DNA of 64,000 nt, from the NCBI GenBank assembly GCA_016930085.1, contig JAFGHO010000124.1:1-64000 (forward strand). The letters run 5' to 3'. The notes beneath the pieces are model-generated. The model searched no databases. It was not told the origin of the DNA and saw only the letters and a program-made list of their open reading frames with translations. The stretch is from Spirochaetales bacterium (lineage in GTDB: Bacteria; Spirochaetota; Spirochaetia; SZUA-6; JAFGRV01). The translations under genes were made by a program, and so were the position numbers. The number at the start of each line of letters is the position of its first letter. Within the stretch, counting starts at the first letter, position 1. This document shows, piece after piece, positions 14,610 to 60,568 of the stretch.

Positions 14610-14639
14610 TGATTTCACGTCCGTCATGCGTGACGGCGT

Positions 14640-15905: not shown

Positions 15906-18038
15906 CTAACAAAGCTGGCTGATCAGCCCCACGTAATACTGGGCGATTCTTAAGGCATCGACGATATCGACCGTTCCGTTGCAGTTCGCGTCCGCGGCCT
16001 GCAGATTGAAATTGGAGGGTTCGAGTCCCACGTAGTACTGGGCCACGAGAAGCGCGTCCACAATGTCGATCCCGCCGCTCGAATTGACGTCGCCGATAGT
16101 GACGGCAGGCGGGTTGGTCACTGTCGGGGGATTCGTCACCGTCGGCGGGTTGGTCGCAGGGGGATTCGTCACTGTGGGCGGGTTGGTAACGGTGGGTGGC
16201 GAGGTCGACCCGCCTCCCGGTTCAACGCCGTAGAGGAGTGTGTTCCCGTCATAGACCGGTATCCGTTCCGTTTTCACTTCCGAACTCGACGACAGACCAT
16301 CGTAGGAGAAATCGTTCGAAGGATCCCAGAAACTCGTATTATTGGGCGCCGCTATTCTCACCTGAATCTCTGCCGCGTACTCCGACTGGCCGCCGGGATA
16401 AATGCTCGTTCCGTCGCTGAAGGCGACCTGGACGTAATAGATGTCGCCGCTGTACTGATTGAGTGTAATCGTCGCCGGAAACTCGACGTAATTCGTGGTC
16501 AGGGTGACGTCGCTCGTCGAATATCCCGCGGCAAAAACCTCGGAAAGGTCGATGAAATACCTGAAGCGGAGATCCTTGATCAACCGTGCCGGCCATCCGG
16601 ATCTGTTGTTGCAAAGCGCCTTGATTTCAGTGAAATTGGTTCCCTGCGCGTTGATCCTTGCCTCGACAAAGAACTCGTCGTCCTTTGTTTCCGCCGGGGG
16701 ATTGAAGGATGCAGATCCGGCGCTTCCCAGCCGCAGAAGACTTGCCACGAGTCCCGCGTTATAATCGCAGGCTACTTCATTACAGACATAATCGCTTATT
16801 GAATCGTTATAGCTTCCGCCCTGATCTGGTCCCCCGACCAGCGCGCCGTAGAGGGTGTGCCGGTGATTCGGCGGGACGTTCTGGCTGTCGGCCCATGAAC
16901 CGTGGGCGGTTCTGTGGTGAGGATGCTGCGGTGCGTTCGATCCTAATCCGACGACATAGCTGCCGTTTCGTTCGTTCGAGCCGAGGCAGTAATCGATCTG
17001 TTTTTTTGCCCATGAGGAATATGAGGTGGCCTTCGAAGAATCGGCGCCGCTCCAGTCGGCGTAGACAAACGCGACAAAAGCCGCCGCCGACGCGTATCGG
17101 AGACATCCCCATGAATCGAGCCATGAAAGTCCGCCGGGTGTTTTCCCTTTTGCGCCGGCCACCCACCAGTCGAGGTGCTGGTGGACAAAATCCTTGTATA
17201 CCTGTTTTCCCGTTATTTTAGCAAGCATGAGCATGCCGCCGTAGTGAGAATCGTCCCAGCAATGGCCCCACTGGTATTCGACGTCGTCAGACTGGCCCTG
17301 CCTGTTCAATTCATCGACAAGCGCTTCCGCGTTGGAAAGGTACGTGGATGAGTTTGTCGCGAGGTACAGCCAGATGGCAGCCCACATGATTTCGTCGATC
17401 GGGCCGCTGTGGGACTGATAATACCCGCTTGCGGCGGTATAATTAGAGTCGCTTCTGTCCGAGTTCGCCCGTGAATAAAGCGATTGCGCCTTGCTGAGGT
17501 ATGTACTGTTGCCGTAGAGTATGTTTCCGATCGCCAGGGCCGCGGCGGTCTGTGCCATCACGGCGGAAAGGCCGCTCGAAGCAGAAGCCGCCGGTCTGTT
17601 TCCGGCCTGTGTTTCCTTGTGGATCACTTCAACGGGACCCCACCACGCATGATCCGCGCCGCCGTCGCCAATCTGATAAATATAGGTGCTTCCGTTCCAG
17701 CATGCGGCCAGGTAATCGAGCACAAACTTGAGGTTGTTGTTGAGATCGGTATTTGATCCGTATTCATAGGCGCCCCATCCGAGTACCGAGGCGGTATATG
17801 CCATAGGCAGGTTGAATTTTACATGATCACCGGCATCGTACCATCCGCCCTGAACGGCATCATCCAGGGTGGCGTCCCCGCGCCATTCGACACGATTCCA
17901 TGATGGAAGCGGTCCGGCCTGCTGGCATTCATAGAAATAGATAGCTTTCGCAAGGGCTTCATTATAGTTCTGCGCGAATGCCTCCGCGGCTATTAATCCC
18001 ACGACAAGGACGATTATCCAGACTTTCATTTTAGTCAT
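15906..18038 (-). CDS. GH9 endoglucanase with CBM3c and C-terminal dockerin
   Basis: A 710-residue secreted enzyme cleaving beta-1,4-glucan. A signal peptide ends about residue 22. The GH9 catalytic domain (about 24-435) has DAGDHVKF with the two catalytic-site Asp at D68 and D71, the signature HHRTAHGSW near 370, and NEVACDYNAG near 420 carrying the general-acid Glu. A CBM3c-like module follows (about 445-610), the layout of processive endoglucanases such as Thermobifida Cel9A. Then come a TNPPTV-repeat linker (about 616-650) and a duplicated dockerin (DVNSSGGIDIVD and DANCNGTVDIVD) ending in a terminal Cys. The start has AGGAGGAG just upstream. It is divergent from the BNR_4 gene, which carries the same kind of dockerin. 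Confidence 0.93.
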   Translation of the reverse strand: MTKMKVWIIVLVVGLIAAEAFAQNYNEALAKAIYFYECQQAGPLPSWNRVEWRGDATLDDAVQGGWYDAGDHVKFNLPMAYTASVLGWGAYEYGSNTDLNNNLKFVLDYLAACWNGSTYIYQIGDGGADHAWWGPVEVIHKETQAGNRPAASASSGLSAVMAQTAAALAIGNILYGNSTYLSKAQSLYSRANSDRSDSNYTAASGYYQSHSGPIDEIMWAAIWLYLATNSSTYLSNAEALVDELNRQGQSDDVEYQWGHCWDDSHYGGMLMLAKITGKQVYKDFVHQHLDWWVAGAKGKTPGGLSWLDSWGCLRYASAAAFVAFVYADWSGADSSKATSYSSWAKKQIDYCLGSNERNGSYVVGLGSNAPQHPHHRTAHGSWADSQNVPPNHRHTLYGALVGGPDQGGSYNDSISDYVCNEVACDYNAGLVASLLRLGSAGSASFNPPAETKDDEFFVEARINAQGTNFTEIKALCNNRSGWPARLIKDLRFRYFIDLSEVFAAGYSTSDVTLTTNYVEFPATITLNQYSGDIYYVQVAFSDGTSIYPGGQSEYAAEIQVRIAAPNNTSFWDPSNDFSYDGLSSSSEVKTERIPVYDGNTLLYGVEPGGGSTSPPTVTNPPTVTNPPATNPPTVTNPPTVTNPPAVTIGDVNSSGGIDIVDALLVAQYYVGLEPSNFNLQAADANCNGTVDIVDALRIAQYYVGLISQLC

Positions 18039-18539: not shown

Positions 18540-20081
18540 ATGAAAATAAAAATAAACTTTTTTATTCTGTTTTTCATGACCGTTTTTTTACTGTCTCCCC
18601 TGTATCCGGCACCCGATGCCGTCAAGGAAGGCGAACACCTCGTTACCTCGAACGCAACGACATTCTTTGACGACCGCTATGGCGATTCGTATATCAATTG
18701 CCAGGCCTTCATTCAGGACGCAATCATCACCTATAACGGATGGCAGTATGTCTCTTACTATAATTCCAACAGGTATGTGACGGTTTCGCGCCGCGAACTG
18801 CCGTCGGGACCGTGGGAGCATTGCGTGCTTTCGGATTACCGGGAGACGGCAGACGATAACCACAATGCGATTTCGATGGGTATTTCCCCTTCGGACGGAA
18901 GAATCCACCTTTCATTCGATCATCATAACAGTACGCTTCATTACAGAAAATCGGTAAGCGGGCTGATAACGAATCCCCGGTCGTTTGAGTGGGCCGCCCG
19001 GCAATTCGGATCTGTTGAGAATAGTCTCGGTTCGGGAACCGTGACGAACTTCACTTATCCCTGTTTTGTCACAGCACCTGATGGCACCCTCCTCTTTTAC
19101 GGTAGAATCGGTTCAAGCGGCGACGGGGACAATTATATCTGGCGTTACAATACCAATGGTTCATGGGCAAGCCTTGGCATGTTCATCGACGGGGTGGACG
19201 AGAACGCGTACCATCACGGTGTGATGTACGACAACAATAACAGGCTTCACATGACGTGGTGCTGGAGGGCGACAAGCGACGGGAACACGAACCACGACCT
19301 CATGTATGCCTACTCGGACGATCACGGCGCGACATGGAAAAACAATGGGGGAAGCGTGGTCGGGACGACGGGAAGCAATCCGGTCAGTCCGTCCAGGGAC
19401 TGCAGGGTCTGGACAATCGGCCAGCGGACCGGTCTGATCAATTCGGAGGGAATGATTATCGACGCGCAGGGCAGGGTGCATGTTCTTTCTCGTGAAGATG
19501 TCAACGGCACGAACCGCCAGATGCATTACTACCGGGATACCGGCGGAACGTGGCACAGGATCGATACGGGGATTCCCACCAAAGTGTGGGACAACCGTTC
19601 AAAGATCGCATACGATGCGGACGGAAACGTGTACGGCATCCTCCCTCATGTTCAGATCGCGGGCGCATCGGTCTCATCGAACTATACGGACTGGAGGATT
19701 ATCGACAACGCGGATGACGGAAGGTTTTTCCATTCGGAACCCCTCATCGACTACTTTGCCCTTCGCGCATCGAATGAACTGAATGTGTTCGTGCAGGCGG
19801 GGACAACGGGGAGCACATCGTCGAATATGTATACCCTCACATACCGGCTTAGCTCATCGGGGTCCGTTCAGACACCCGAGCCCGGTAATACGGGCGATGT
19901 AAACTCAAACGGCACGATCGACATCGTCGACGCACTCCTTGTCGCCCAATATTACGTGGGGCTTGCTCCGGCAAATTTTAATCAAAACCGGGCGGATGCG
20001 AACTGTAACGGTACAATCGATATCGTCGATGCATTGGTGATCGCCCAATACTATGTGGGGCTGATCGACCGGTTTTGCTAA
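18540..20081 (+). CDS. BNR_4-type propeller protein with C-terminal dockerin (possible polysaccharide lyase)
   Basis: A 513-residue secreted protein with a signal peptide (about 1-23). Residues about 30-440 form a BNR-repeat seven-bladed propeller of the BNR_4 type. The segments DDNHNAISMGISPSDG and IHLSFDHHNSTLHYR are characteristic, with later YHHGVMYDNNNRLHMTWCWR. Relatives in CAZy families PL24/PL25 cleave ulvan-type uronate polysaccharides; others are sialidase-like, so the substrate is uncertain. A dockerin duplex (about 448-513) has DVNSNGTIDIVD and DANCNGTIDIVD and ends in Cys, nearly identical to that of the neighbouring GH9 enzyme. It is divergently transcribed from that gene. Confidence 0.85.
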   Translation: MKIKINFFILFFMTVFLLSPLYPAPDAVKEGEHLVTSNATTFFDDRYGDSYINCQAFIQDAIITYNGWQYVSYYNSNRYVTVSRRELPSGPWEHCVLSDYRETADDNHNAISMGISPSDGRIHLSFDHHNSTLHYRKSVSGLITNPRSFEWAARQFGSVENSLGSGTVTNFTYPCFVTAPDGTLLFYGRIGSSGDGDNYIWRYNTNGSWASLGMFIDGVDENAYHHGVMYDNNNRLHMTWCWRATSDGNTNHDLMYAYSDDHGATWKNNGGSVVGTTGSNPVSPSRDCRVWTIGQRTGLINSEGMIIDAQGRVHVLSREDVNGTNRQMHYYRDTGGTWHRIDTGIPTKVWDNRSKIAYDADGNVYGILPHVQIAGASVSSNYTDWRIIDNADDGRFFHSEPLIDYFALRASNELNVFVQAGTTGSTSSNMYTLTYRLSSSGSVQTPEPGNTGDVNSNGTIDIVDALLVAQYYVGLAPANFNQNRADANCNGTIDIVDALVIAQYYVGLIDRFC

Positions 20082-24863: not shown

Positions 24864-25303
24864 AATCACATATACCACCCACTCCACATATCCCATAAAA
24901 CCATCCCGGCTGCACTACAGAGGATAATTATGTCCGTATCGTCGAATACAACCGCATATAAAAACCGTCTGAACTTAACACATTTAAAACGTTTCAAAAA
25001 CATTGATATCATCGATACAGTAGCCGAAAGATGACTGCAGTGAAAAATGGCGAATAATTCGCGGCTTAAGGTCATTTTTTATAACACTGCGGCGATAACG
25101 ATAATCAAGAAAGATATTATCTTGACATTTTTGCTGTGACAGGTAACCACGGGGACATAGAGAAAACCATGACATGATCAACAGGCAATATATTGAATTT
25201 ACCGTAACGATATACAGTGAATTCCTCTATGGTAAAAAAGACATAATTACTATTTACGGGGAGGGCAAGTTGTTTTAAAATGGATAAAAAAAGGAGTAAG
25301 CAT
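24864..25303. other. Intergenic region before the DUF3160 gene
   Basis: About 440 bases. A 34-codon frame at 24930-25034 has GAGG upstream of its ATG but nothing else to support it. TTGACA at 25122-25127 lacks a good -10 partner. No convincing gene or promoter is seen. Confidence 0.4.
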
Positions 25304-27805
25304 ATGAAAAATACGTACTTATTGACTTTTTTAGTCTTTTTGTGCTGTTGTTGTCTTGCGTCCGGACTCTTTGCCCAGGCGGTCGGCGATACGAACAATG
25401 ATGCGGCGATTAATATCATCGATGCGCTGCTCGTGGCCCAGTTCTATGTGGGTCTGGGGCCTCAGGGGTTTTACGAATCCGCAGCCGACGTGAATGACAG
25501 CGGCAGCATCGATATTGTCGACGCCCTGATGATCGCACGGCGCTATGTCGGGATTATCGACAGCTTCCCGGCCGAAAAATGGGTACGGTATCAGGTTGCC
25601 GCTGAGCAGACGGATATCGTTGCCGTGACCGGTTCGGGAGGAACATCGGTAACCGTCACCTTCACCTTCAATCACGGGGGGTACCGGGTCGTCGAGTGGG
25701 GAGAGACTGTTCAAAGCGGAAGCGTCTTCAAGGCCGATTGCGACGTCGAGATGTGGACGGGAATGAGTACTCAGGCCATGACGACAACGGCGAATACCTA
25801 TTCCCTCGGCGCCCTCGATCCGGGAGATTATTCCTTCACGCTGATGTGTTGGGGGGAAGAGGTGGAAACCCTCCGGTTTCGCTGTGACAATGCGACACCG
25901 TATCAACGGCCGGTGAATCTGGAAGCGGTCAATTCTGTCGAACAGCTTGACGGTGCCGCCGAAGATATGTTGTTGACGAATGGTTTTGTCGTCCTCGGTT
26001 CCAGGGGATACGACAGGCTGTCGAGTCTCTATTTCTCGCTTTTCAGACTCAATACCGATGTCCCGGTCTTGATCACCACCGACGCCCTCCTTCATATATT
26101 TCATATGGTGTATGACAACCTTCTGAAGACAATGGAAAAAACCGCCCTGCTTCCGAAGATGGAGCAGCTGATCGGCCTTATGACAACGGAAATCGCATCG
26201 GAATATGGACGGCTCGAGGAAAGCCCCTTTTTATCCGAAGCCGCGCGGCGGCTCTGGGTCTGTTTCGCCGTTGCCGGGGCGCTTATAAAAGGAGAGACAT
26301 CGATCACCGGAAACGGGACGGAAGCGATACGGGAAGATGCGAATCTCTATCTGCAGAAGATATACGATCACACCCTCACCGAATATTATCCGGGAGATGA
26401 TTACACGATGTACGAACCACGCGGCCATTACACGGAAGACCCCGAACTCGAACACTACTTCCGGGCCGTCAAATGGCTCGGCAGGCGTATTTTCAGGGTA
26501 TATGATCCGGTAAATGTAAGCGATTCCGAGTATGAATGCGCGGGTGCGGCGATCATGGGATTTCTCCTCATGAATGTGAAAAACGGCGCCCATCCCCTCT
26601 GGGAAGAACTGTATACACTGACATCGCTTCTGGTCGATGCCGCTGACAGTATTACCCCGGTCATGGTCGACGATGCCATGCGGCACTGCTTCGGGGACGA
26701 GTACGCGACGCAGAAATACATGCTTTTGGAACGGCATGAAAATCTTGCCGCGCTCAGGGACGAGCTTTTGAGCGACCGGTACCCCGAATCGGAAATTATT
26801 CCGGTGCCGCTTCTCAATCCCGGAGACCTGCCGAAGAAATATGTCCAGTTTATGGGCGAACGCTATGTAATCGACGGTGAGGCGATGCAGCGAACCTGTT
26901 TCCCGGATGTCGCGGACAGGCCGCTACCCGGCGGCCTCGACGTCGCCGCCGCGGTCTTGAACTCCCCCGCGGCTTACGAGGAAATGGAAGGTGAAATGAT
27001 CTCGTATCCGGGTTTGAAGGAAGCGATAGATACCCTGATCGAAGAGTTTGCCGTGATACCGGAAGAAAAATGGATGAGGAGCACCTACAACGCCTGGCTG
27101 TATACACTGCGGTCGCTTTCGGCGACCCCCGGGGGCGCCGCGCCGGAATGCATGAAGACATCCCTCTGGCAGCGTGAAAAACTCAATACCCAGATGGCTT
27201 CATGGACGCAACTCAGGCATGACAATATCCTCTACGCGAAACAGACGATGATTCCCTCTCCCTGGAACGAAGGAAGGGGCCTCGTCGAACCGTATCCCGA
27301 TTTCTATCTGCGGTTGAGCCGCATGTGCAGGAGCCTCGTCTCCGTAATGGATGCCTTCGAAATCGACCTCCAGGTACACAGAACGCGCCTTCAGACTCTT
27401 GCGGGCTGGGGGGATAGTTTCTCGGGCTATGCGGAGAAAATTATCGCGGGAACGCCATTGTCTGCGGATGAACAGAACAGAATAAAACGGTGGGGACTCG
27501 ACCTGCTTTCTTTCTTCAGTTCTTCCGACCTTCCCGAGGACGATCCCGCGCTTGTGGCGGATGTCGCCTCGAGTTCCATCACCGGCGGTGTTCTCCATGA
27601 GGGTGTCGGTAACATCAATCCGATTATCGTCATCTATACCGATCCCGAAGATTCGGTAAGCCGAGCCGCTTTGGGTTATGTCCTGAGTCATTATGAGTTC
27701 ATCGAAGAAGACTGGAACAGACTCAATGATGAAGAGTGGGTGCGGCGTCTTGAAGAAGATCCTCCGGCCAGGCCGCCATGGACCGCCGGATTTATCGCAA
27801 AGTAG
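25304..27805 (+). CDS. DUF3160 protein with N-terminal dockerin
   Basis: An 833-residue secreted protein from the ATG at 25304, preceded by AAGGAG. A signal peptide (about 1-25) is followed at once by a dockerin duplex (about 27-88) with DTNNDAAINIID and DVNDSGSIDIVD. A small beta-sandwich comes next (to about 200). The rest is a DUF3160-type domain (TNGFVVLGSRGYDRLSSLY, VPVLITTDALLHIFHMVYD, PSPWNEGRGLVEPYPDFY and a late DPEDSVSRAALGYVLSHYEF). DUF3160 has no established function. This dockerin is N-terminal and lacks the Cys pair of the other four. A strong terminator follows. Confidence 0.85.
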   Translation: MKNTYLLTFLVFLCCCCLASGLFAQAVGDTNNDAAINIIDALLVAQFYVGLGPQGFYESAADVNDSGSIDIVDALMIARRYVGIIDSFPAEKWVRYQVAAEQTDIVAVTGSGGTSVTVTFTFNHGGYRVVEWGETVQSGSVFKADCDVEMWTGMSTQAMTTTANTYSLGALDPGDYSFTLMCWGEEVETLRFRCDNATPYQRPVNLEAVNSVEQLDGAAEDMLLTNGFVVLGSRGYDRLSSLYFSLFRLNTDVPVLITTDALLHIFHMVYDNLLKTMEKTALLPKMEQLIGLMTTEIASEYGRLEESPFLSEAARRLWVCFAVAGALIKGETSITGNGTEAIREDANLYLQKIYDHTLTEYYPGDDYTMYEPRGHYTEDPELEHYFRAVKWLGRRIFRVYDPVNVSDSEYECAGAAIMGFLLMNVKNGAHPLWEELYTLTSLLVDAADSITPVMVDDAMRHCFGDEYATQKYMLLERHENLAALRDELLSDRYPESEIIPVPLLNPGDLPKKYVQFMGERYVIDGEAMQRTCFPDVADRPLPGGLDVAAAVLNSPAAYEEMEGEMISYPGLKEAIDTLIEEFAVIPEEKWMRSTYNAWLYTLRSLSATPGGAAPECMKTSLWQREKLNTQMASWTQLRHDNILYAKQTMIPSPWNEGRGLVEPYPDFYLRLSRMCRSLVSVMDAFEIDLQVHRTRLQTLAGWGDSFSGYAEKIIAGTPLSADEQNRIKRWGLDLLSFFSSSDLPEDDPALVADVASSSITGGVLHEGVGNINPIIVIYTDPEDSVSRAALGYVLSHYEFIEEDWNRLNDEEWVRRLEEDPPARPPWTAGFIAK

Positions 27806-27884: not shown

Positions 27885-27946
27885 AAACCGATTTACTAAA
27901 CCGGTTTAAAAAAAAGCTTGACAGCAGGTAAGACCGGTGGTAAAAT
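27882..27946 (+). promoter_or_regulatory. Promoter with upstream palindromic operator for the mannanase gene
   Basis: TTGACA at 27918-27923, a 17-base spacer and TAAAAT at 27941-27946. Just upstream is the perfect 12-bp palindrome TAAACCGGTTTA (27897-27908). A third half-site, TTTAAACCG (27882-27890), forms a wider inverted pair with CGGTTTAAA (27902-27910). The ACCGGT-centred palindrome resembles LacI-family operators that respond to sugars. No LacI gene is in the window. Position upstream of -35 would also allow activation. Confidence 0.7.
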
Positions 27947-27984
27947 GGAAAAAAACATGCAAAACGAAAAAATGGAGGAAAGGT

Positions 27985-29220
27985 ATGAAAAAACCATGTA
28001 AAACATTTTATCTGGTTGCGGCAATCCTCTTGATCGCGGGAATTGCCCAGCTCGATGCGCAGGGATTTTCAATAAGCGGCAGGAATATTCTGGACGGAAA
28101 CGGGAATACCTTCAAGATAAGGGGTATCGCCCACGCACACTGCTGGTATACGGACAGGACGAATCAGGCCCTGGCGGACATCAAGGCGGTCGGCGGGAAC
28201 TGCGTCAGGGTCGTCTGCTCGAACGGCCGTGAGGGATGGACACGGACAACGGCAAGCGATCTCACCAATATCATCAATACCTGCAAGTCGAACAAGCTTA
28301 TCGCGATGCTCGAGCTTCACGATACGACCGGCTATGGCGAAAACTCAAGCGCGATCACCCTCTCCGCTGCGGCAAGCTACTGGAACGGCGTAAAAAGCGC
28401 GCTGCAGGGCCAGGAAGCCTACGTCCTTGTCAATATAGGAAACGAACCCTACGGAAACAACAACGCGAGCAACTGGGTGAACGATACGAAAGGCGCGATC
28501 CAGAGCATGAGAAACAATGGATTTACCCATACGCTCGTCGTCGACGCCCCCAACTGGGGACAGGACTGGGAGTTCAATATGAGAAACAATGCCCAGTCCA
28601 TATTCGATTCCGATTCGAGAAAGAACACGATACTGTCCGTTCATATGTACGGGGTTTTCGACACGGCATCTGAAGTACGGGACTATATCGATCAATTCAG
28701 GAGCAAGAACCTCCCCCTTATTGTCGGAGAGTTCGGACATAACCACTCGGACGGGAACCCGGACGAAGCGACGATCATGTCCTATACGCAGTCCCAGGGA
28801 GTCGGCTGGATAGCGTGGTCGTGGTGCGGAAACTCGGGCGGCGTCGAATACCTCGATCTTGTAAACAGCTGGAACAGAAGCAGCCCCACGGACTGGGGAA
28901 GGACGATTTTTACCGGTTCGAACGGTCTCAGCTCCACCTCGAGCGAGTGTTCAATTTTCAGCGGAACGTCCACCTCGCCGCCGACCGTGACGAATCCGCC
29001 GACCGTCACCAACCCGCCGGCGGGAAACCGGGGGGATGTGAACGGCGACGGTAACATCAATATCGTCGACGCCCTCCTTGTGGCGCAGTATTCGGTCGGC
29101 CTGAACCCGTCGAACTTCAATGTGAACAACGCCGATACCAACTGTGACAATAACATCACGATCGTCGACGCCCTTCTTATCGCGCAATACGCGGTGGGAC
29201 TTGTCGACCGGTTCTGTTGA
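27985..29220 (+). CDS. GH5 subfamily 8-like beta-mannanase with C-terminal dockerin
   Basis: A 411-residue secreted enzyme from the ATG at 27985, with GGAGGAAAGG just upstream. After a signal peptide (about 1-25) the GH5 domain begins FSISGRNILDGNGNTFKIRG with IAHAHCWY, the pattern of GH5_8 endo-beta-1,4-mannanases. The acid/base is E154 in VNIGNEPYG and the nucleophile E249 in LIVGEFGH. HMYGV and IAWSWCGN are further conserved parts. It would cleave mannan or glucomannan. A short PPTVTNPP linker leads to the dockerin (about 347-411) with DVNGDGNINIVD and DTNCDNNITIVD and a terminal Cys. It has its own promoter/operator and terminator. Confidence 0.92.
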   Translation: MKKPCKTFYLVAAILLIAGIAQLDAQGFSISGRNILDGNGNTFKIRGIAHAHCWYTDRTNQALADIKAVGGNCVRVVCSNGREGWTRTTASDLTNIINTCKSNKLIAMLELHDTTGYGENSSAITLSAAASYWNGVKSALQGQEAYVLVNIGNEPYGNNNASNWVNDTKGAIQSMRNNGFTHTLVVDAPNWGQDWEFNMRNNAQSIFDSDSRKNTILSVHMYGVFDTASEVRDYIDQFRSKNLPLIVGEFGHNHSDGNPDEATIMSYTQSQGVGWIAWSWCGNSGGVEYLDLVNSWNRSSPTDWGRTIFTGSNGLSSTSSECSIFSGTSTSPPTVTNPPTVTNPPAGNRGDVNGDGNINIVDALLVAQYSVGLNPSNFNVNNADTNCDNNITIVDALLIAQYAVGLVDRFC

Positions 29221-30453: not shown

Positions 30454-30482
30454 TTGACAGGATGAGGTTTTTCTGATACAAT
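30454..30482 (+). promoter_or_regulatory. Sigma-70-type promoter of the cohesin-like operon
   Basis: TTGACA at 30454-30459, a 17-base spacer and TACAAT at 30477-30482, 38 bases before the first start codon. It is a near-consensus promoter able to drive the three genes to 35940. Confidence 0.75.
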
Positions 30483-30520: not shown

Positions 30521-32389
30521 ATGAAAAAAGGCTTTTTCTATCATTTTACTTCCTTTATATATATCGTTATCGCTGTTATATGCACCCTTGTTCTTTCATG
30601 CCGCCATCCGGGAGATGAAATCCCCGCCATCGACACAACCCCACGGGCTTCACTGGCATTTGCCAATTACATCGATCCTTTTATTGTCGAAGGGAAACCC
30701 TTCAGGCTATGCCTTTCCGTGGATCTATATTATTCCCGGCTGAAATCCTTTGATATTATCGTTTCCTATGATGAAACGATGATGCTGCCGATTGAAAATG
30801 GTGTTGAATCGGGCAATGAAAACCTCTCCATCACCGTCGATACCGTCACTCCGGGAATGCTGCGCATTCAGGGCAATCATGAAACATGGTTTGAAAGCGG
30901 TGAGGATATCGGGTTACTGATCGCCGGCTGGGATGCGACCGCGCAGGGTGAGACCGATATTTCCGCCGAAATCGTCGGTCTTGCGGCGCCGGACGGTTCG
31001 GCGATCGAATCAGAAAAAACGATACATTTCACCATCGACGTAGATGAGTCCGTTTCTTACCCCCTCACCGGGCGCGTCCTCGACAGTATCGGGGGTGCAC
31101 CGGTCGGCGGTGCCAGTGTCGAGGTTTCGGGGACGGGTCTCGAAACAACGACGGACAGCGACGGGTTCTTCCGGTTCGAAAATATCGTTATCGGGGTCTA
31201 TGATATCGTGGCCACGAAAGAAGGACGGGCCGGAAGCAGGCTTCAGGAGGTGTATGTCGACGGCGATGATATCGACGTCGAGATCGTCCAGTGCGAGTAC
31301 AATTACCTGATCGGCTCGGTCACCCCCCCCTCCATTGAAGTGAGCGGGGTCGATCACGGCGGGGAATATACCGGGCTCGTTCCCGTCGACATCCGCGTTA
31401 TCGAGGGCTCGAGCCCGGTCTTCGCGACCGAGTTTCACCGAAGCATTTATTTAAAAATAGGGACTACCTCAATGAGTTATTACGAAGTTGCCGAAAGCCC
31501 CACCGACACACTCTACTACCGGTGGAATACCCAGACGCTGCCCGCGGGGCCGGTCGTTTTAAAGGCGGTTGCCTATGACACGAACAACAACAGAGCGGAA
31601 ATCAATATTCCCCTTTCAATTACAACGAATAACGGCGTTGTCCCGGAAATGTCCCCGTATGAGGATTTTTACAATATTACTGCGACGACCTACGGCAAGA
31701 GTATGGTTATAACGAGGTCGCCGGGGCTTTCGGCAATCATCGGCGGGGCCGCGTATCCGGCCACGCGAGCGCCGGAAGACACCTCGATTATCGTCGAGTT
31801 CTCCGTTCAGAAGTATTACCATGGCATTGTGATATATAAATCAGCAGCGGAGGAAGGGCCTTACGCGCTTGCCGGCCAGACAACCTATACCGATTCCTTC
31901 TTTTACAAGTTTGCCGATTATTCACCCGCCCTCATGCCGGATATGACCGTTTATTACAAACTCGCGTATTTCAACCAGTATGGGATGGGGCCCCCGACGG
32001 ACGCCATTTCAGTCAGGATTCTGCCGGCATACCACATTTCCCTTGCCGGCCCGCCGAACAACGCGATCATTACCGAAATTACTCCCACACTGACATGGGA
32101 AAGCGAACCTGTTATCGAGGGGGCTCGCCGGACGGACTGGATTGTCGTCACCAATGTGCTGGATGCCACGATTGTGGCCTACAGTTTTATCGATGACGGT
32201 CTGGAATATACGTTACCCGCTCTGCAGTATAATAACAAATATGAATGGGATGTCAGGAGTCTGTATGAATACAACAACGCCCCGCCCAGGGCGAATGTGT
32301 TGTCCCGTTCCTTTCCCGGGGGAAAAGGATTTACGGATCTGTCTCTGAACGGGTCCTTTTATTTTACGGTCGTGCAGCCGGAAGAGTGA
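30521..32389 (+). CDS. Lipoprotein with one cohesin-like domain and carboxypeptidase-regulatory-like domain
   Basis: A 622-residue protein with a hydrophobic signal ending in CTLVLSC. Residues about 40-170 look like a cohesin-type beta-sandwich: RLCLSVDLYYSRLKSFDIIV, then SYDETMML, GMLRIQGN, GLLIAGWDATAQGETDISAE. This matches the strand order of type I cohesins (YDPSVL, then G-x-I/L-x-I, then F-x-A near a TPI-like segment). Next is a CarboxypepD_reg-like domain (about 185-260, VSYPLTGRVLDSIGGAPVGG), then fibronectin/Ig-like regions (to about 620). The lipid anchor would place the module on the cell surface, where it could bind the dockerins of neighbouring enzymes. The cohesin call is inference. 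Confidence 0.65.
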   Translation: MKKGFFYHFTSFIYIVIAVICTLVLSCRHPGDEIPAIDTTPRASLAFANYIDPFIVEGKPFRLCLSVDLYYSRLKSFDIIVSYDETMMLPIENGVESGNENLSITVDTVTPGMLRIQGNHETWFESGEDIGLLIAGWDATAQGETDISAEIVGLAAPDGSAIESEKTIHFTIDVDESVSYPLTGRVLDSIGGAPVGGASVEVSGTGLETTTDSDGFFRFENIVIGVYDIVATKEGRAGSRLQEVYVDGDDIDVEIVQCEYNYLIGSVTPPSIEVSGVDHGGEYTGLVPVDIRVIEGSSPVFATEFHRSIYLKIGTTSMSYYEVAESPTDTLYYRWNTQTLPAGPVVLKAVAYDTNNNRAEINIPLSITTNNGVVPEMSPYEDFYNITATTYGKSMVITRSPGLSAIIGGAAYPATRAPEDTSIIVEFSVQKYYHGIVIYKSAAEEGPYALAGQTTYTDSFFYKFADYSPALMPDMTVYYKLAYFNQYGMGPPTDAISVRILPAYHISLAGPPNNAIITEITPTLTWESEPVIEGARRTDWIVVTNVLDATIVAYSFIDDGLEYTLPALQYNNKYEWDVRSLYEYNNAPPRANVLSRSFPGGKGFTDLSLNGSFYFTVVQPEE

Positions 32390-32396
32390 GAAGAAG

Positions 32397-34547
32397 ATGA
32401 AGCGATTATGGACCTTTTTGACAATATTATGGTCACTCTCCTTTCTTTTTTCCTGTTCGATTGAAAGCGAACGGACAGCATGGCCCGTGACGTTGATCGA
32501 AGAAGAAACGAACGGGGAGTATGTCGAGGGGGAGGTGATCGTCACTATCGATGAATCAGTCGCCTGCGGCGATATCGATGTCCTTGTCCCGGGCAACCGC
32601 GTGAAAACCGTCACCCCGAAAGGGTCGTCACAGCGCATGCTGTTGTATCGGCTTTTCGACAGGGATGAGTGCGACACCGTGATAATCGCACTCATGTCGA
32701 GCGGACTTGTCAATTACGCGGAGAAGAACGCAGTGTATTCACTCTGTGAATATGTTCCCGACGATCCCTATTACTCGACCTGCCAGTATTCACCGCAGAT
32801 TACCGGCTGCGAAGAAGCCTGGGAGGCCGTCCAGTCACCGGGAGGCGGGATCATCGTTGCCGTACTGGATACGGGAATCAATGGCGAACATGAGGAGCTC
32901 GAAGGAAGGGTGATCGCCGGAAGAAACGTGTTGACCGGGGAAGATATCCCGGAAGGGACGAACAGCGACGACAACGGCCACGGTTCCCATGTCGCGGGCA
33001 TCATCGGCGCAAAAGGCGATAACGGAAAGGGAATCGCGGGTGTCGCATGGGACTGTTCCCTCATGCCGGTCAAGATATTCGGTAATGATATACAGACCAC
33101 GACAGCCCATATCGCCGAAGCCATTGTCTGGGCCGTCGATCACGGCGCCCGGGTCATCAGTATGAGTTTCGTGGGAATGCTGTATTCGATGGCGGTCAAC
33201 GACGCGGTCAATTACGCGTTGAACAGGGACGTCGTGCTGGTCGCGGCCATGGGAAACGACGGGAGGGCAAAAATCGAGTACCCGGGCGCGCATCCGGGGG
33301 TGATTGCCGTGGGTGCGACGAACGGAAGGGATCAGGTCGCCTATTTTTCCACGCGGGGAAACCATATCAGTGTTGCGGCGCCGGGGGAAAGCATCTATTC
33401 CCTGAAAAACACCTCGAACACCGAATATGTATTCGGAAGCGGAACGTCGATGGCCACACCCTTTGTTACGGGAGTCGCCGCGTTGCTTTTATCGGCCCGG
33501 CCGGAACTCACCCCGGTAGAATTACGTTCGATTATCGAAGACAGTGCGGTCCCGCTGGGACCCGACGAGTTCAGTCCGGCATACGGCTACGGCAGGGTGA
33601 GTGTTTATAATGCCCTTAACCTCGATGCCCGGAACAATTACGGGACGGTCACCGTCAATGTTACGAACAGGGACGAACCGGTCGGAGGGATTAAGGTCCT
33701 CCTGGAAGATACTGCGGACAACACGATCGTACAGGCGGGGATTACCAGCTATGGCGGAATCGAAGGCGTCTTGAACGGCCAGATTGTTTTCAATCATATA
33801 CACCCGGGTGATTACCGGGTAAGGGTTCAGGCAGGTATTCACAAAGAAACCTTTATCTCAATCACACCCAAAAGCCGGGAACAGACCGCATCCTTTGCGT
33901 TCGACACTCCCATGGTGCTGGTCGTCAACGCGATAAAGGTCGCAGACGCGTCGCTTTTGACGGCGGAGGCTTTGTATGCGGAACGACTCACCTCGATGGG
34001 AAAAGCCTTCACCCTCTGGAAAACCGCCTATCACGGACCGCCGCCGAAATCCCTCATCGACGCCTATGACCTTTTGATCTGGTTTACGGGCAACACACAG
34101 AACAACCCGTCAAAACAGATCGAGATTCTCACCGAATACGAGATAACGCTGCTTGAAGAGTATTGCGATAAGGGCGGCAGGCTTTACCTTTCCGGCAATA
34201 ACATCGCGCAGCACCTGAAGCGATTCGATCCGGATTTTTTAGCCGGTTACCTGCACGCCGAATACCTCACTTCACCCCTCTCGCACGACGAACTTTTGGG
34301 GCGGGGGCTTCTCGACGGTATGGATTTTTTCATCTCCATGGCGGACGACGATCAGATCGATATCCTCGATGGGGCGACCGGTATTCTCGACTCGAGCGAC
34401 GAGCCCGATGAAAACCACTGGGCGGGCCTGAGCTGGGATTCTGGATACCGACTCATATTCACCACCCCGTATCCGAACCAGATCAACAGCTCTTTTCACG
34501 AGGAGTTTTTCAACAGGGTCCTCACATGGCTGGAAAGCGACGGATAA
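32397..34547 (+). CDS. Subtilisin-like serine protease (S8), lipoprotein, with C-terminal ThuA/GATase-like domain
   Basis: A 716-residue protein seven bases after the preceding gene. A signal ending SFLFSC suggests lipidation. A fervidolysin-like propeptide (about 45-125) precedes the S8 domain with catalytic D158 (VAVLDTGI), H195 (NGHGSHVAGI) and S351 (GTSMATPFVTG). A CarboxypepD-like beta domain (about 420-500) and a C-terminal alpha/beta domain (about 505-716, IWFTGNTQNN, GGRLYLSGNNIAQHL) follow; the last resembles ThuA or glutamine-amidotransferase folds. Sandwiched between two cohesin-like genes, it may process surface complex components. Confidence 0.9.
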   Translation: MKRLWTFLTILWSLSFLFSCSIESERTAWPVTLIEEETNGEYVEGEVIVTIDESVACGDIDVLVPGNRVKTVTPKGSSQRMLLYRLFDRDECDTVIIALMSSGLVNYAEKNAVYSLCEYVPDDPYYSTCQYSPQITGCEEAWEAVQSPGGGIIVAVLDTGINGEHEELEGRVIAGRNVLTGEDIPEGTNSDDNGHGSHVAGIIGAKGDNGKGIAGVAWDCSLMPVKIFGNDIQTTTAHIAEAIVWAVDHGARVISMSFVGMLYSMAVNDAVNYALNRDVVLVAAMGNDGRAKIEYPGAHPGVIAVGATNGRDQVAYFSTRGNHISVAAPGESIYSLKNTSNTEYVFGSGTSMATPFVTGVAALLLSARPELTPVELRSIIEDSAVPLGPDEFSPAYGYGRVSVYNALNLDARNNYGTVTVNVTNRDEPVGGIKVLLEDTADNTIVQAGITSYGGIEGVLNGQIVFNHIHPGDYRVRVQAGIHKETFISITPKSREQTASFAFDTPMVLVVNAIKVADASLLTAEALYAERLTSMGKAFTLWKTAYHGPPPKSLIDAYDLLIWFTGNTQNNPSKQIEILTEYEITLLEEYCDKGGRLYLSGNNIAQHLKRFDPDFLAGYLHAEYLTSPLSHDELLGRGLLDGMDFFISMADDDQIDILDGATGILDSSDEPDENHWAGLSWDSGYRLIFTTPYPNQINSSFHEEFFNRVLTWLESDG

Positions 34548-34569: not shown

Positions 34570-35940
34570 ATGATTACCGGTCATGACAACCTGACGAAAC
34601 GATTACCCTTCATTATCTTACTGGTCCTGCTTCTGGTATTCCAGGCATGCAGGCATGCCGGAGACGGTGATATTGTCGAAGACAATGATCTCGCGACCAT
34701 GGAATTTTTCTTTTATCCGAACAATGAAGTCATCTTTCATGACACGTTCGCCCTGTTCTGTACGACCGTCTATCTCGTTTCGCCGCAGGGTGGGGTCGAT
34801 GCAGCGGCCGTCACGATCGGCTATGATCAGGGGGTCATGGAATATGAGAGTGTATTCAGCCGCGATTTTATCGTGAGTGCGAACGATACCCCGGGGGCGC
34901 TTCAGGTGCAGGTGTCCGCGCTCGGGGCCTACGATCCCGTCGATTATCTCGAGGTGTGTTCCGTGACATGGAAGGCGACCGCCACGGCGATTACGGACAT
35001 GTCGTTGACGATCGAGGGGATGACTAATCCAGACGGGCTTCCGGTCGAATACCGCTCCGGGTTCTCGAATACGGTGAAAATACTGAAAGTATTGGGAAGT
35101 ATTTCGATAGAGGGCGCCGGGGCGGTGTTAAAAGGAACACATTTTTCAAATACCCTTTATTTCGGCACGGAAGATAAAATCCTTGCGGACTACGACATCA
35201 CCGTCACCTATGATCCCCGGAAAATAACGATCGACGAGTCGGCAGGAGAAAGCGGGATCATGCTCGGCAGGGACGGGTTCATCGACGAGATCACGCACGA
35301 CTACGGAACGATCACTATCAGGGGAACGAATACCGTCGGGACCGGGGCCGGGTCGAGGCTCGAGTTTTTTTCCATGCGGTGGTATGCGGAAGATTCGGGA
35401 AGCACGGCGATATCGGTCAGGGTAAACAGAATCATGACCGGGGACGCCGTTTTTATCAAACCCTCGATACAGGGAAAATCAATCTCGATACAAAGGACGG
35501 GAAACAAACCGCTGGTTGAAATCCGGTTCGCGCCGGAAACACTCATAGTGAACGAGGAAGACCTGTTTGACACGGGTATAATCCTTGATACAAAAGACTA
35601 CAAGATAGCCGCATACGGAATCAACGTCTATTACGACCCGGATGTCCTGCAGGTAGATGCGGATAAGGGAAATAACGGTGTGAGTGCCGGAGCGGACGGA
35701 TTCCTCGCCGCGGCGAATCCTTCGGTTCCGGGTGAAATAAGAATCGCCGGTTTCGATGTGGGGGGGAAAGGACCCGATCCCGATATGGAGCTTCTCGTCA
35801 TCCATTGGAAGGCGATCGGAGTTGACGACGCTTCGACGATTTTCATGAATATCAAATCACTTACGGATCAATATCAAACGGAACTTCTCCATGACGATCC
35901 CGGAACCTGTACGGTGACGGTCAATGAATCCGTCGATTAA
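34570..35940 (+). CDS. Lipoprotein with three tandem cohesin-like domains (putative surface scaffoldin)
   Basis: A 456-residue protein 22 bases after the protease gene. A signal ends in LVFQAC. The rest divides into three repeats of about 130-140 residues. Each has a strand pair, a YD motif and a late MRW/IHWKA strand: AVTIGYDQGVMEYESV with CSVTWKATATAITDMSL; DYDITVTYDPRKITID with FSMRWYAEDSGSTAIS; and AYGINVYYDPDVLQVD with LLVIHWKAIGVDDASTI. The YDP-V/I-L core and G-x-I-x-I strand (GEIRIAG, GTITIRG) are those of cohesins. No CBM or dockerin is seen. It could be a small outer-membrane scaffoldin for the dockerin enzymes nearby. This is profile-level inference, unproven. Confidence 0.7.
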   Translation: MITGHDNLTKRLPFIILLVLLLVFQACRHAGDGDIVEDNDLATMEFFFYPNNEVIFHDTFALFCTTVYLVSPQGGVDAAAVTIGYDQGVMEYESVFSRDFIVSANDTPGALQVQVSALGAYDPVDYLEVCSVTWKATATAITDMSLTIEGMTNPDGLPVEYRSGFSNTVKILKVLGSISIEGAGAVLKGTHFSNTLYFGTEDKILADYDITVTYDPRKITIDESAGESGIMLGRDGFIDEITHDYGTITIRGTNTVGTGAGSRLEFFSMRWYAEDSGSTAISVRVNRIMTGDAVFIKPSIQGKSISIQRTGNKPLVEIRFAPETLIVNEEDLFDTGIILDTKDYKIAAYGINVYYDPDVLQVDADKGNNGVSAGADGFLAAANPSVPGEIRIAGFDVGGKGPDPDMELLVIHWKAIGVDDASTIFMNIKSLTDQYQTELLHDDPGTCTVTVNESVD

Positions 35941-40612: not shown

Positions 40613-40678
40613 GCTGCCTGCGAAAAAGAGGACGGATTGATGGATTTTCCATCAGTTAAGGGGGGTTACCATGAATAG
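40598..40678 (+). CDS. Possible 26-residue leader peptide
   Basis: The ATG at 40598 is preceded five bases away by AGGAAGGAG, a very strong ribosome-binding site. The frame reads MHFFFAACEKEDGLM and ends at TAG 40676-40678, overlapping the next start codon (40671) by 8 bases. The start codon lies in the terminator stem. Overlap with the giant gene suggests translational coupling. It may be fortuitous; there is no homology evidence. Confidence 0.4.
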   Translation: MHFFFAACEKEDGLMDFPSVKGGYHE

Positions 40679-43600
40679 ATTTTACCTTTCTCTTTTTTTT
40701 ATTATTATCGCTATGTTTTTCATCACCTCATGCGAGCTTTTCGAACCGGGGCTTGGCGACAAGGTGGATATCAATCCGCCTTTTCTGTTCGTCTCCAGCC
40801 ACTCAAACGGTGAGTATGTCAGCGGAATCGTCACATTGAGCGGAAACTTCGAGGAAGACAAAGAAACCTCGCGTGTTCAGGTTTCCGTTGACGGGGGCGT
40901 GACGTTTATCGATGCCGCGCTCAACAATAAAAAGAAAACGTGGAGCTGTGAGGTCGATACGACCGCATATCTCGATGGTGAAAAGGATGTCGTTTTCATT
41001 ATCACCGACTCATCGGGAAAAACCACGCAAAAGAACATACTTCTCTATTTCGACAACACGCCGCCTTTAATCGTGGTCAATGTTCCGCTTGTTTACGGCG
41101 GAGACGCCTCCTACTACGGAACGGTTGCAATTAAAGGGGAGGCGGCTGATACCTTTGGCATTAAAAACATCACGATCACCCTGCAGGATTTGACCCAGGA
41201 GGTCGCGGACGGAAGAAACAGCTGGTCGTATTATTTTGACAGCATTTCATATGTTCCCGCGCAGGGAAGTTATTCGTTTTCGATCACCGCAGAAGACAAT
41301 GCGGGTAATACCTCGACTGATTTTTATCATTATGCCGATGTCAAGACGGCAAACAGCGGGGATGCGATGTCGATCGAAGACCTTTTCAAGATATATTCGG
41401 GCGAAGTATCGAATCCGACGATGGAGGATTTCCTCGCTAACGAAGGCAAGACCTCCATATCGTATAATTTCGATCAGGATCTCGATAAACCTACGATAGA
41501 AATATATAACCCGTCGGAAGACTCGATTCCGGAAGAAAACGTCGTGTCGGGTAACGCGAGATTAAGCGGTAAAATCATCGATGAAAACGGGGTAAAGGCT
41601 GGATCGACTGAAATCTACATCATCAAAGACGGTGAATCCGTTCCCGAGGTCGATTGGGAAGGGGCCGATGAAACGAATCCGGGAACCGAATCGGTAAGCT
41701 GGAGTTATATTCTGGACGGCCTCGCCGACGGCCAGTACTCACTGCGCGTGCGGGCGGAAGATGAAAACGGCAATCAGCGGACGACCGACCCCGCGGTCGG
41801 TTTTATCGTCGATTCCGGGGCCCCGACGATTACGGTGGAGCAGCCGACACAGGGCGCCTATATCAACGGTAACTTCACAATTTCCGGGACAGCGGTCGAT
41901 CTTCAGGGGATCGAGCAAGTCGAGGTCAGTCTCGACGACGGCGATACCTACGAACTCGCTACCCTCATCGGGGATGACTGGAGTTATAACGTGACCGATC
42001 CCGATGAAGGATCCATACTCATCAAGGTCAAGGCGACCGAGGATACGATCGAAAAGAAAAAGGCATATTACAATCTCCAGGTAATCGTGGATAGAACCCT
42101 GCCCGAAATCACCTTCCTCAATCCGCAGTATTCGAGTACGGTCAACGGGCTTGTTCTGATCAAGGGGGTTTCGTCCGACAACACCCAGATCACGGACGTA
42201 AAACTCCGGATTGGAGAAAGCCCCAGCCAGCTTACGATGACGAACAAATACAACTGGGAGTACGAGATCGACAGCCAGAGTTACGCGGACGACGAGTACG
42301 CGGAGGAGGAACCGGGATCGCCGGGGGTGTGGCGGCTTTATGTGACCGCGCAGGTCACCGACAAGGCGGGCAACGTCAGGACCAAAGACGATTACTATTT
42401 CCTTATCGATAACGACATGGACAAACCGAACGTGACCATCCTCTCGCCCCAGGAAGGGGCGAATATCGGGGGTTCCACCCTGGTAACGGGGACGGCCTTC
42501 GACGATGACAGCCTTTATGGGGTGTATATGAGTATCGACCTCGATAACGACGGCTTTTTTACCCATCAGTACGATTTGAACGGGGACCTGGATACCGGGT
42601 ACCTGGACGGCACGATCGTCGATCTTCCCATCGGGAATACCGGCGACAGGTTCGAGGATGAAACGAAATGGTATCCGGTCGAAGACGGGATCATCACATG
42701 GAAACAGACACTCAACTCGGACGGCGAGCTCTATCATGTCACGGGCGGCCATAACGGCGATATAACGGTCAGGGTCGTCGCCGTGGATACAAAGGACGGG
42801 GGGATTTCTCCTTCGGTCAAGGGAAACGCCCGTGTGCTTTCCTTCCGTTTTGACGATACGATACCCGGTTTCGAGAGTTTAAACCATTCCTCCGGTTCGT
42901 ATGTAAAAGGCGAGTTTCACCTCACCGGAAGGGTGACCGACGACACGAGGGTCGACAAGCTGGATATCAGCTATGACGGCGGACTCAGCTGGTCGTCGGT
43001 GGCCACCCCCTATCTCGCGACGTACGACTTCGATATCACGGTTGACACCGAAACAATCAACAGCGGCGAGTTCGACGATTCAAGCGGCATACTCTACCTC
43101 AGGCTGCGAGCGGAGGATAACACCGGTTTCAGGAAACTGCAGCTGATCGATTTTAATGTGGATAACAGTTATCCCGAAAATACGGCCTATACGGGGGCGT
43201 CAAGCGATATTCACGGTTCTAGTGTTTACGCACTCATGCAGGGAGAAGCGGAGGATTCCGGGGCGGTCAGCGGCATAAAGGAGATACATGTCTATTTTAT
43301 TCGGGGCGGCTTGGTGTTCAATCCGAAGGTATACGACAGCTCGACCGCTATCGGGACCTTCGATTTCGGCGACGGAAACGGAAACGTTCCCTATACGAGT
43401 AACACAACCTACAAGATCGTGATCGACGACAAAAACGAGTTCGGAAACGATACGGGACCGAACGGGGACAACGACGGGTACCCGGAGTCACTCTCCCTTT
43501 CGGGTTCGACGATGAACTGGTGGGCGACATTTACATCGGCCAATATCCCGGACGGGGAAATCGACATTCATTATGTGATTTTCGATAACGCCCTGAATGG

Positions 43601-58339: not shown

Positions 58340-60568
58340 CTAACAGAGTTCGTCGATCAGTCCCACGTAATACCGCGCGATGAGAAGCGCATCGACGATA
58401 TTGATCGTATTGTCGCAGTTGGCATCCGCCATGCCGCTGTTGAAATTTTCCGGACTCAAACCCACATAATACTGGGCGACAAGAAGCGCGTCGACGATAT
58501 CGATGCTTCCGCTGTCGTTGACATCACCCAATACACCTGAAGGCGGCGAGGTAGGCGAACCGGGATTCGTCGGTCCGGGAGGACCCGTCGGGGTTGCCGC
58601 AGGCGGAGCGGTCTGAGCGCCCCCTGGCGGTTCGAGACCCCAGAGAAGCACACCATTGTCATAGACGGGGATGTATTCCGTTTTTCCCTTGAATGTCTTG
58701 CAGTCATAATCCGGATTTGTCGTTATGTCCTGATACGACCAGTCATTCCCGAACCCGCCGGTAACGGGGCTGGAAATACTGACCGTCGCCTCTTTTTCGC
58801 ATTTATCCCAGTACCCGGGGTGGATGAGTGTGCCGGTAAAATCGACGGTGAAATAATAAACATCGCCGGCCCACTGACTGAGCCCGGAAACAGATCCCCC
58901 TTCGTCGCTTTCTTTTAACGCCAGTTTGATATCGCCCGTCGAATAGCCCGCATTAAAAACCTCGGAGAGATCCATAAAATAGCGGGCGGACATTCCCGAC
59001 CGTACGGTCGGCGGCCACGCGGAGCGGTTGTTCACCTGAAAAAGCACATGGACGTCACTCGGACCCTCCCATTGTATCCATCCCCGGACAAAATATTCGG
59101 TCAGGGCTTCTTCTTCCGGCGGCCTGAAATCCTCCGGCTGCGGCCAGCCGGCGAGCGGTTCGCCCCCGTAGGCCGAATACATTCTCGCGAGTGACCCGAC
59201 AAACCCCGCGTTGTAATCGTCGGCGACCTCGTTCAATGTGTAGTCCCGCACGTCGTCGTTCGGTATGTCGTTCGAATCCGGTCCGCCGACCAGGGCGCCG
59301 AAAAGGATATGACGGTGAAAGGTCGGTACATCGAGCATACTCAGCCATGAGCAGTGCGCGGTCCGGTGGTGGGGGTGCTGCGGCGGGTTTTCGCCGAATC
59401 CGACCATGTAACTCCCGCCCTTGGGGTTGTCTCCGAGTACGTAGTTGAGCTGTTTTTCAGCGAACTCGCGGTAGGTGGCTTTCTTTGAGGCTGTTCCCAC
59501 CGAATCGTCGTCCGACCAGACAAATGCGAGGAACGCGGCGGTTGTCGCATAGCGGAGTGCCCCCCAGTTGGAAAGGTACGCCAGTCCGCCCGGAGAATAG
59601 GCGACCCCCGAGCCGGGAAGAAACCAGTCGAGGTTCGCCTCGACCGCTTCGACATACTCCGGGTCCTTTGTTATCTGGGTCATTTTAAGCACGGCGCCGT
59701 AGCTGACATCGTCCCAGCAGTGGGTGTGGTGGCCCCCGAGTGAACCGATCGGAATATACGACAGCGCTTTATCGAGGTATGATTCATTATTCGTCTTGAT
59801 ATACAACCAGACGGCGGCCCAGGTGAGGTCGTCGAGGTACCCCCCGGACATATAAAAGGCCGGGAGGGGGTATTTGCCCCGGTAGGTGTCCGCGAACGAG
59901 AAAAGCTGTTCCGCGTGGGTGAGGAGGGTCGCCGCGTACGAGGGGTTCGTCGGTTCGAAAATAATAGAACCGATCGCCATAGCGGCGGCCGCCTGACCGG
60001 CAACGTCGGAACCGGGGGTGGATGTGTCCACCTTGAAGGAATTGCGTTCGGTAAAAAGATGGACGACTTCGGGCGGCACCCAGCAGCTGTGGTCCGATTC
60101 GCCGTCGCCGCAGTCATAATAATAGACATTCGCAGACGGGTGGCATTTGATAAAGTAATCGAGCGCCCACTTGATTTCATCGAGTATATCGTCGAGAAGA
60201 CCGGCGCGCTCGAACCCGTCACGGTATTCGTAAACCCCCCATCCGAGCTGGGCCGCCGTGTATGCCATCGGCATGCCGAATTTCACGTGGTCGCCCGCGT
60301 CGAACCAGCCTCCCGTGAGGTCGAGCCCGACATCCTTGCCGTCGTCCATACAGGTGTCGGCCCTGTAGGGGAGAATGTAGTCGTCCGGAAGATCGCCCGA
60401 ACGCTGCGCCTTGTAAAAGAGAATCGCTTTCTGAAGCGCCTCCCCGTAATTGTAATACGAACCGCCGGAACGGGGTTCGGCATAGATGGTTGCACCTGAT
60501 GCGGCGATCAATACGGTAAGCAGAAAAATCAGCCGAATTGTTTTTGTTTTCTCGTTTTTTATTTCCAT
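58340..60568 (-). CDS. GH9 endoglucanase with CBM3c and C-terminal dockerin, second copy
   Basis: A 742-residue secreted enzyme. After a signal peptide (about 1-30), GH9 has TGGWFDAGDHVKF with D90 and D93, HHRTAHCSW near 405 and NEVADDYNAGF near 445-455 with the catalytic Glu. A CBM3c-like module (about 480-650) follows, then a PPAATPTGPPGPTNPG linker unlike the TVTNPP one of the first GH9, and a dockerin with DVNDSGSIDIVD and DANCDNTINIVD ending in Cys. It shares the domain order of the enzyme at 15906-18038 but is diverged. It should cleave cellulose or mixed-linkage beta-glucan. It has its own promoter. Confidence 0.93.
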   Translation of the reverse strand: MEIKNEKTKTIRLIFLLTVLIAASGATIYAEPRSGGSYYNYGEALQKAILFYKAQRSGDLPDDYILPYRADTCMDDGKDVGLDLTGGWFDAGDHVKFGMPMAYTAAQLGWGVYEYRDGFERAGLLDDILDEIKWALDYFIKCHPSANVYYYDCGDGESDHSCWVPPEVVHLFTERNSFKVDTSTPGSDVAGQAAAAMAIGSIIFEPTNPSYAATLLTHAEQLFSFADTYRGKYPLPAFYMSGGYLDDLTWAAVWLYIKTNNESYLDKALSYIPIGSLGGHHTHCWDDVSYGAVLKMTQITKDPEYVEAVEANLDWFLPGSGVAYSPGGLAYLSNWGALRYATTAAFLAFVWSDDDSVGTASKKATYREFAEKQLNYVLGDNPKGGSYMVGFGENPPQHPHHRTAHCSWLSMLDVPTFHRHILFGALVGGPDSNDIPNDDVRDYTLNEVADDYNAGFVGSLARMYSAYGGEPLAGWPQPEDFRPPEEEALTEYFVRGWIQWEGPSDVHVLFQVNNRSAWPPTVRSGMSARYFMDLSEVFNAGYSTGDIKLALKESDEGGSVSGLSQWAGDVYYFTVDFTGTLIHPGYWDKCEKEATVSISSPVTGGFGNDWSYQDITTNPDYDCKTFKGKTEYIPVYDNGVLLWGLEPPGGAQTAPPAATPTGPPGPTNPGSPTSPPSGVLGDVNDSGSIDIVDALLVAQYYVGLSPENFNSGMADANCDNTINIVDALLIARYYVGLIDELC

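Follow-up and report, generated by a model that had tools for sequence, protein, structure and literature searches.

The DNA analysed here (the window) is a stretch of 64,000 nucleotides from a draft assembly of spirochaete lineage. It carries a three-gene operon on the forward strand, in which the genes of a PrcA-like lipoprotein, of an S8 subtilase lipoprotein and, in last position, of a predicted lipoprotein with three cohesin modules are separated by gaps of 7 and 22 bases (Table 1). A near-consensus promoter was found shortly upstream and ranks first among 14 promoter-like sites in 7 kb, where 7.5 are expected at the 9-of-12 threshold. The three-cohesin gene coincides exactly with its ORF, begins with ATG and encodes 456 amino acids. 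Its N-terminus, MITGHDNLTKRLPFIILLVLLLVFQAC, leads from a basic (K-R) part through a hydrophobic stretch to F-Q-A-C, plausibly a spirochaetal lipobox with a predicted lipid anchor on Cys27. Three modules of about 130-140 residues follow, with the core-strand motif YDQ in the first and YDP in the second and third, and a late strand reading WKA, WYA and WKA, respectively. Modules 1 and 2 share 19-23% identity with module 3, and a Pfam search of the protein found neither a CBM nor a dockerin. In all these respects (lipobox, diverged repeats of this length with these strands, no CBM and no dockerin) an earlier sequence-only reading of the locus proved accurate.

Table 1. Coordinates of the operon, its promoter, the cohesin modules, the dockerins of the window and related lipoproteins at other loci
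Feature	Position	Strand	Basis or remark
Near-consensus promoter TTGACA-17-TACAAT with TG, 11/12	30454..30482	+	Shortly upstream of operon
PrcA-like lipoprotein, N-terminal cohesin-like module	30521..32389	+	CarboxypepD_reg; NCBIfam PrcA 1.1e-6, below cut-off; lipobox VLSC, Cys27
Diverged cohesin-like module of PrcA-like lipoprotein	30680..30988	+	In-house profile 8e-18; leave-out profile 51.7 bits
S8 subtilase lipoprotein, PrtP-like	32397..34547	+	Pfam Peptidase_S8 9.7e-62; NCBIfam denti_PrtP; lipobox LFSC, Cys20
Three-cohesin lipoprotein gene	34570..35940	+	ORF; Pfam Cohesin 7.6e-8; AlphaFold2 model with three cohesin folds
Signal peptide and predicted lipobox FQA-C	34570..34650	+	By eye from translation; Cys27 codon 34648-34650
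Cohesin module 1 (aa 42-171)	34693..35082	+	VIA-align Z 16.3 to 2jh2; fold retained, without the loop and the conserved surface
Cohesin module 2 (aa 174-310)	35089..35499	+	VIA-align Z about 16 to 3kcp, 1g1k; fold retained, with changed recognition positions
Cohesin module 3 (aa 314-452)	35509..35925	+	VIA-align Z 16.0 to 5nrm_A, 15.8 to 6kgc_A; family's conserved surface kept
Dockerin of GH5 protein (27937-29220)	29032..29190	+	Pfam; E 3.8e-11 in genome scan; nearest upstream dockerin
Dockerin of DUF3160 protein (25280-27805)	25385..25543	+	Pfam, genome scan
Dockerin of BNR_4 protein (18540-20081)	19893..20051	+	Genome scan
Dockerin of GH9-CBM3 protein (15906-18038)	15936..16094	-	Genome scan
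Dockerin of second GH9-CBM3 protein (58340-60568)	58370..58531	-	Genome scan
Two-cohesin FN3-like lipoprotein	L046:8349-10253, L067:2349-4142, L068:5519-7312, L071:5744-7525	-, -, +, +	

The same reading had called the modules cohesin-like, and profile searches, decoys and structural comparison agree on this. The whole protein matches Pfam Cohesin (PF00963) with an E-value of 7.6e-8 and 33.1 bits, above the curated cut-off of 24.1; no single module reaches that cut-off by itself, and neither does a typical single-cohesin lipoprotein of the same genome. A leave-out profile made from 91 other cohesins of the window genome and its relatives, with the three-cohesin lipoprotein excluded, recognised module 3 (1e-39, 131 bits), module 2 (1.4e-25, 86 bits) and module 1 (1.8e-7, 27 bits) and gave zero matches to reversed or shuffled ORFs at E<=10. 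A search of PDB sequences with the lipoprotein alone returned chance matches only, and a 34-module profile reached cohesins there weakly.

The AlphaFold2 model (12-row alignment) consists of three beta sandwiches (mean pLDDT 82.9, pTM 0.62), and its mature part lacks helices, as in type I cohesins. Each module shows the jelly-roll fold of solved cohesins, which are the top solved relatives of every module in VIA-align with Z near 16. Module 1 is closest to Clostridium perfringens 2jh2 (Z 16.3, 2.0 Å over 124 residues, 24% identity), module 2 to the CipA and C. cellulolyticum cohesins 3kcp and 1g1k (Z about 16, 1.8 Å), and module 3 to cohesin 6 of A. cellulolyticus ScaB and to C. acetobutylicum CohA2 (Z 15.8-16, 1.8-1.9 Å). 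By cohesin type, Z values in VIA-align were 15-16 for type I, about 12-13 for type II and about 12-15 for type III chains. With cohesins as the closest solved structures throughout, no other beta-sandwich family offers a better match, which was the objection that the earlier reading had raised against itself. Integrins topped a first Foldseek list at a TM-score of about 0.3 and an rmsd above 20 Å and were discarded as artefacts of tandem sandwiches.

The fold is common to the three modules, and the surface through which a cohesin meets its dockerin is conserved in one of them. In C. thermocellum, cohesin residues Asn37 and Asp39 contact the Ser-Thr motif of the dockerin (PMC5772552). The two positions can be read in the modules since the alignment of strand 3 is gap-free at its Y-D end; beyond strand 3 the MAFFT alignment to CipA is unreliable, so that positions in the later loop and in strand 8 are approximate. 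Among the 91 family cohesins, position 37 is Ala in 73 and position 39 is Gly in 66. Module 3 has this Ala/Gly pair, module 2 has Asp/Asp and module 1 Ala/Ala. Module 3 also carries the A-Y-G strand, the G-x-x-x-G-x-D-G loop, F-D-x-x-G-x-G and L-x-D, a set that is incomplete in the other two: module 2 is without the F-D, and module 1 without the loop that most family members have. Module 3 does not retain the type I pair Asn37/Asp39 of C. thermocellum; the dockerins of this genome have changed as well. In the loci examined, their recognition pair is Ile-Val in 96 of 128 matched repeats, where C. thermocellum has Ser-Thr, and Ile-Ile is the second commonest pair. Module 3 alone thus retains the conserved cohesin surface of the family, and from these residues we infer that it matches the near-uniform dockerins and would bind one.

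The same asymmetry is seen in the homologue of a relative from a second genus (G003, locus L057), in which module 3 is near-canonical and modules 1 and 2 are diverged. The first modules of both proteins group together with support of 100/94, and the split between the modules therefore probably predates the two genera; the long branches of modules 1 and 2 make their exact placement in the tree unsure. The suggestion that the three modules bind different partners is accordingly not well supported, given the surface lost from modules 1 and 2, in the homologue too, and dockerins that are nearly uniform.

Both proteins encoded upstream resemble components of the dentilisin protease. The subtilase scores 213.1 bits against the PrtP equivalog NF033595 (denti_PrtP; cut-off 300), which makes it a relative and not a member, and the first operon gene reaches 27.2 bits against the PrcA equivalog NF033597, whose cut-off is 200; the first-gene homologue of G003 had no match to NF033597 at E 0.001. 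As both proteins lie below the NCBI equivalog cut-offs, the operon is termed dentilisin-like and not dentilisin. A CarboxypepD_reg region follows the cohesin-like module of the PrcA-like lipoprotein, and the subtilase itself is without a dockerin. The gene order is identical in G003 (9248-11083, subtilase region 11083-13254, 13251-14648), with one in-frame stop in the subtilase region. G002 and G004, relatives that are likewise rich in dockerins, lack the operon in drafts of 92% and 87% completeness, respectively; a cellulosome-like system can therefore do without it. A more distant spirochaete of the class (G051) has only a lipoprotein-subtilase pair, followed by a gene on the opposite strand. 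Its lipoprotein runs from the lipobox straight into the CarboxypepD_reg region, without a cohesin, and shares 24% identity over 361 aligned columns with the PrcA-like lipoprotein. The simplest history suggested by these sequences would be an addition of cohesin modules to the protease operon in the dockerin-bearing lineage, with a loss in the other lineage as the less simple alternative.

The window genome encodes far more of such a system. It holds 148 Dockerin_1 (PF00404) matches, five of them within the window, and 23 ORFs with 33 cohesin modules between them, several of these ORFs being truncated at contig ends. The main scaffoldin (L037:6680-11851, -) combines a CBM3, a GH115_C-like region, seven cohesins and one internal dockerin. 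Many of the about 150 dockerin proteins are fibre-degrading enzymes, among them GH5, GH9, GH11 and GH12 members. A CBM-bearing multi-cohesin scaffoldin and many dockerin enzymes, the combination by which a cellulosome is recognised at the genome level, are thus both present. A model of a natural Coh-Doc-Coh segment from the scaffoldin, made for a view of the docked pair, was uninformative, the dockerin and linkers being of low confidence. An S8 subtilase at another locus (L041:10267-12828, -) carries a CBM3, a cohesin and a dockerin, which indicates that subtilases take part in the cellulosome-like system.

Several further proteins of the genome deserve mention. Additional anchor candidates are lipoproteins with one cohesin and a predicted lipoprotein with two; the latter, whose N-terminal region is FN3-like, occurs in all four cohesin-bearing genomes (see below) and is a better candidate for a core anchor than the three-cohesin lipoprotein. 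A cohesin and a dockerin share one chain in a GH11-CBM60 protein, a GH12 protein, the S8 subtilase-CBM3 protein and an LRR protein (L044:9314-11071, -; L050:5269-6726, +; L041:10267-12828, -; L053:11345-12835, -), and with near-uniform dockerins such proteins could link into chains without a scaffoldin. A cohesin flanked by two CBM64 was found at L042:12758-14413 (+). A C-terminal cohesin module was also detected on a TRAP transporter DctQ-DctM fusion (L052:5990-8353, -), where it is unexpected, the transporter being of the inner membrane; the fusion adjoins a DctP-like and a GH3/NagZ-like gene, both named from sequence only. Within the window, the N-terminal dockerin of the DUF3160 protein ties this uncharted family to the cellulosome-like system, and two adjacent ORFs of 1818 and 1780 aa (40671-46127 and 46139-51481, +) with many Big_7 and Big_13 Ig repeats are likely surface proteins.

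Among 395 genomes of the same class that were searched, matches to the cohesin profile were found in only four, namely the window genome and three relatives of its family. The relatives are the 'Spirochaetales bacterium' assemblies Zod_Metabat.749, Zod_Metabat.855 and ZodW_Metabat.242, whose prefix suggests Zodletone spring. Within this sample cohesins are confined to genomes with many dockerins; a fifth genome of the family (G001) had no cohesin-profile or Dockerin_1 match at the thresholds used. CBM3 multi-cohesin scaffoldins similar to the one at L037 occur in G003 and G002, and G004 has multi-cohesin ORFs of like layout. A misbinned contig is an unlikely source, because parts of the system lie on many different contigs and it is found again in three further assemblies of the family. 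A contig scan with a six-row cohesin alignment, chosen because a 34-row one was too diverse, also pointed to two adjacent proteins of this cohesin family in a candidate division WOR-3 assembly that bears the Zod_Metabat prefix too (L105:7031-7831 and 7851-8447; JAFGHJ010000002.1), reflecting either lateral transfer or misbinning.

The reading that we favour, at about even confidence, is that the three-cohesin protein is a lipid-anchored dockerin receptor with probably one socket, carried on a stalk of two modules. The predicted lipid anchor would hold it on the outer surface of the cell, and module 3, C-terminal and distal to the membrane, would be the working cohesin for the common dockerin type of the genome, its partner being a dockerin on an enzyme or on the scaffoldin. 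The first two modules, as degenerate cohesins, would chiefly form the stalk or keep protease subunits in place. Since its gene shares an operon with those of the PrcA-like and PrtP-like lipoproteins, the protein would most likely set a dockerin-bearing protein beside the surface subtilase and the complex that it presumably forms.

A rather unlikely alternative assigns the protein to the dentilisin-like protease complex as a structural subunit; its cohesin folds and that of the PrcA-like protein would hold the subtilase and one another, and would bind no dockerin. This would fit the tight operon kept in a second genus, the diverged cohesin-like module on the PrcA-like protein and the loss of the conserved surface from modules 1 and 2, and it has a precedent in Treponema denticola, where the lipoproteins PrcB and PrcA anchor PrtP (PMC8167434). 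A purely structural role, however, would leave the conserved surface of module 3 unaccounted for, as well as the restriction of cohesins in the class sample to dockerin-rich genomes and the lack of a third gene in the cohesin-less operon of G051. The minimal scaffoldin of the sequence-only reading, in which each diverged module would take a different dockerin, appears improbable. The prediction of three cohesin folds behind a single lipid anchor and the divergence between the modules stand, but two of the three sockets have lost the conserved surface (module 1 also the loop common in the family), and the loci examined show dockerins of almost a single type, with no set of distinct types that would match three specificities. 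The name 'minimal scaffoldin' also overlooks the setting, a dentilisin-like operon in a genome that holds a true large scaffoldin and several other cohesin lipoproteins. Least probable is a generic beta-sandwich adhesin or stalk that attaches to substrate or other cells and has to do with neither dockerins nor the protease. Integrin-like and adhesin chains do occur among the weaker structural matches, the low-TM integrin matches probably reflecting tandem beta sandwiches, but cohesins are the best matches of each module and module 3 keeps family-specific residues.

Taken beyond the single locus, the data permit the tentative proposal that a spirochaete lineage, presumably diderm as spirochaetes are in general, carries a complete cellulosome-like system on lipoproteins instead of SLH or sortase anchors, with a dentilisin-type protease wired in through cohesins added to two operon genes. 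A 2024 census of cellulosome bacteria was based on RefSeq and excluded metagenome assemblies, and the words 'spirochaete' and 'lipoprotein' are absent from its text (PMC11557425). No spirochaete cellulosome was found in the open literature searched; the parts (cohesins, lipoproteins, a dentilisin-like protease) are of known kinds, and their combination is not described in that same literature. If the proposal holds, lipid anchoring would be a further way of holding a cellulosome-like system on the cell, and a cohesin-wired protease could mature or turn over the complex or attack cell-wall protein. With dockerins so nearly uniform, it also becomes a testable question how the assembly stays ordered if most plugs and sockets resemble one another.

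Compared with the type I clostridial systems (C. thermocellum CipA, A. cellulolyticus ScaB, C. acetobutylicum CohA2), modules 2 and 3 have the same fold by model (Z 15-16, about 1.8-2.0 Å) and the dockerin family PF00404 is shared, whereas sequence identity is about 12-20%, Asn/Asp at positions 37/39 is replaced by Ala/Gly in module 3, and the clostridial dockerin pair Ser-Thr is mostly Ile-Val. The cohesin-like modules of C. perfringens glycoside hydrolases (2jh2, 2vo8) include the best structural match of module 1, but there a single module sits on an enzyme and here three sit on a lipoprotein. Anchoring scaffoldins of Gram-positive bacteria are attached by SLH domains or sortase and present cohesins on a surface anchor without a CBM. 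The protein described here differs from them in its predicted lipid anchor, its spirochaete host, its protease operon and in having probably one competent cohesin out of three. The dentilisin operon of Treponema denticola, prcB-prcA-prtP (PMC8167434), likewise encodes lipoproteins together with a lipid-modified subtilase, as predicted here, and has the PrcA-like and PrtP-like genes adjacent and in the same order; in the window, by contrast, the order is PrcA-like, PrtP-like and three-cohesin protein, and cohesin modules are found in the first and third genes.
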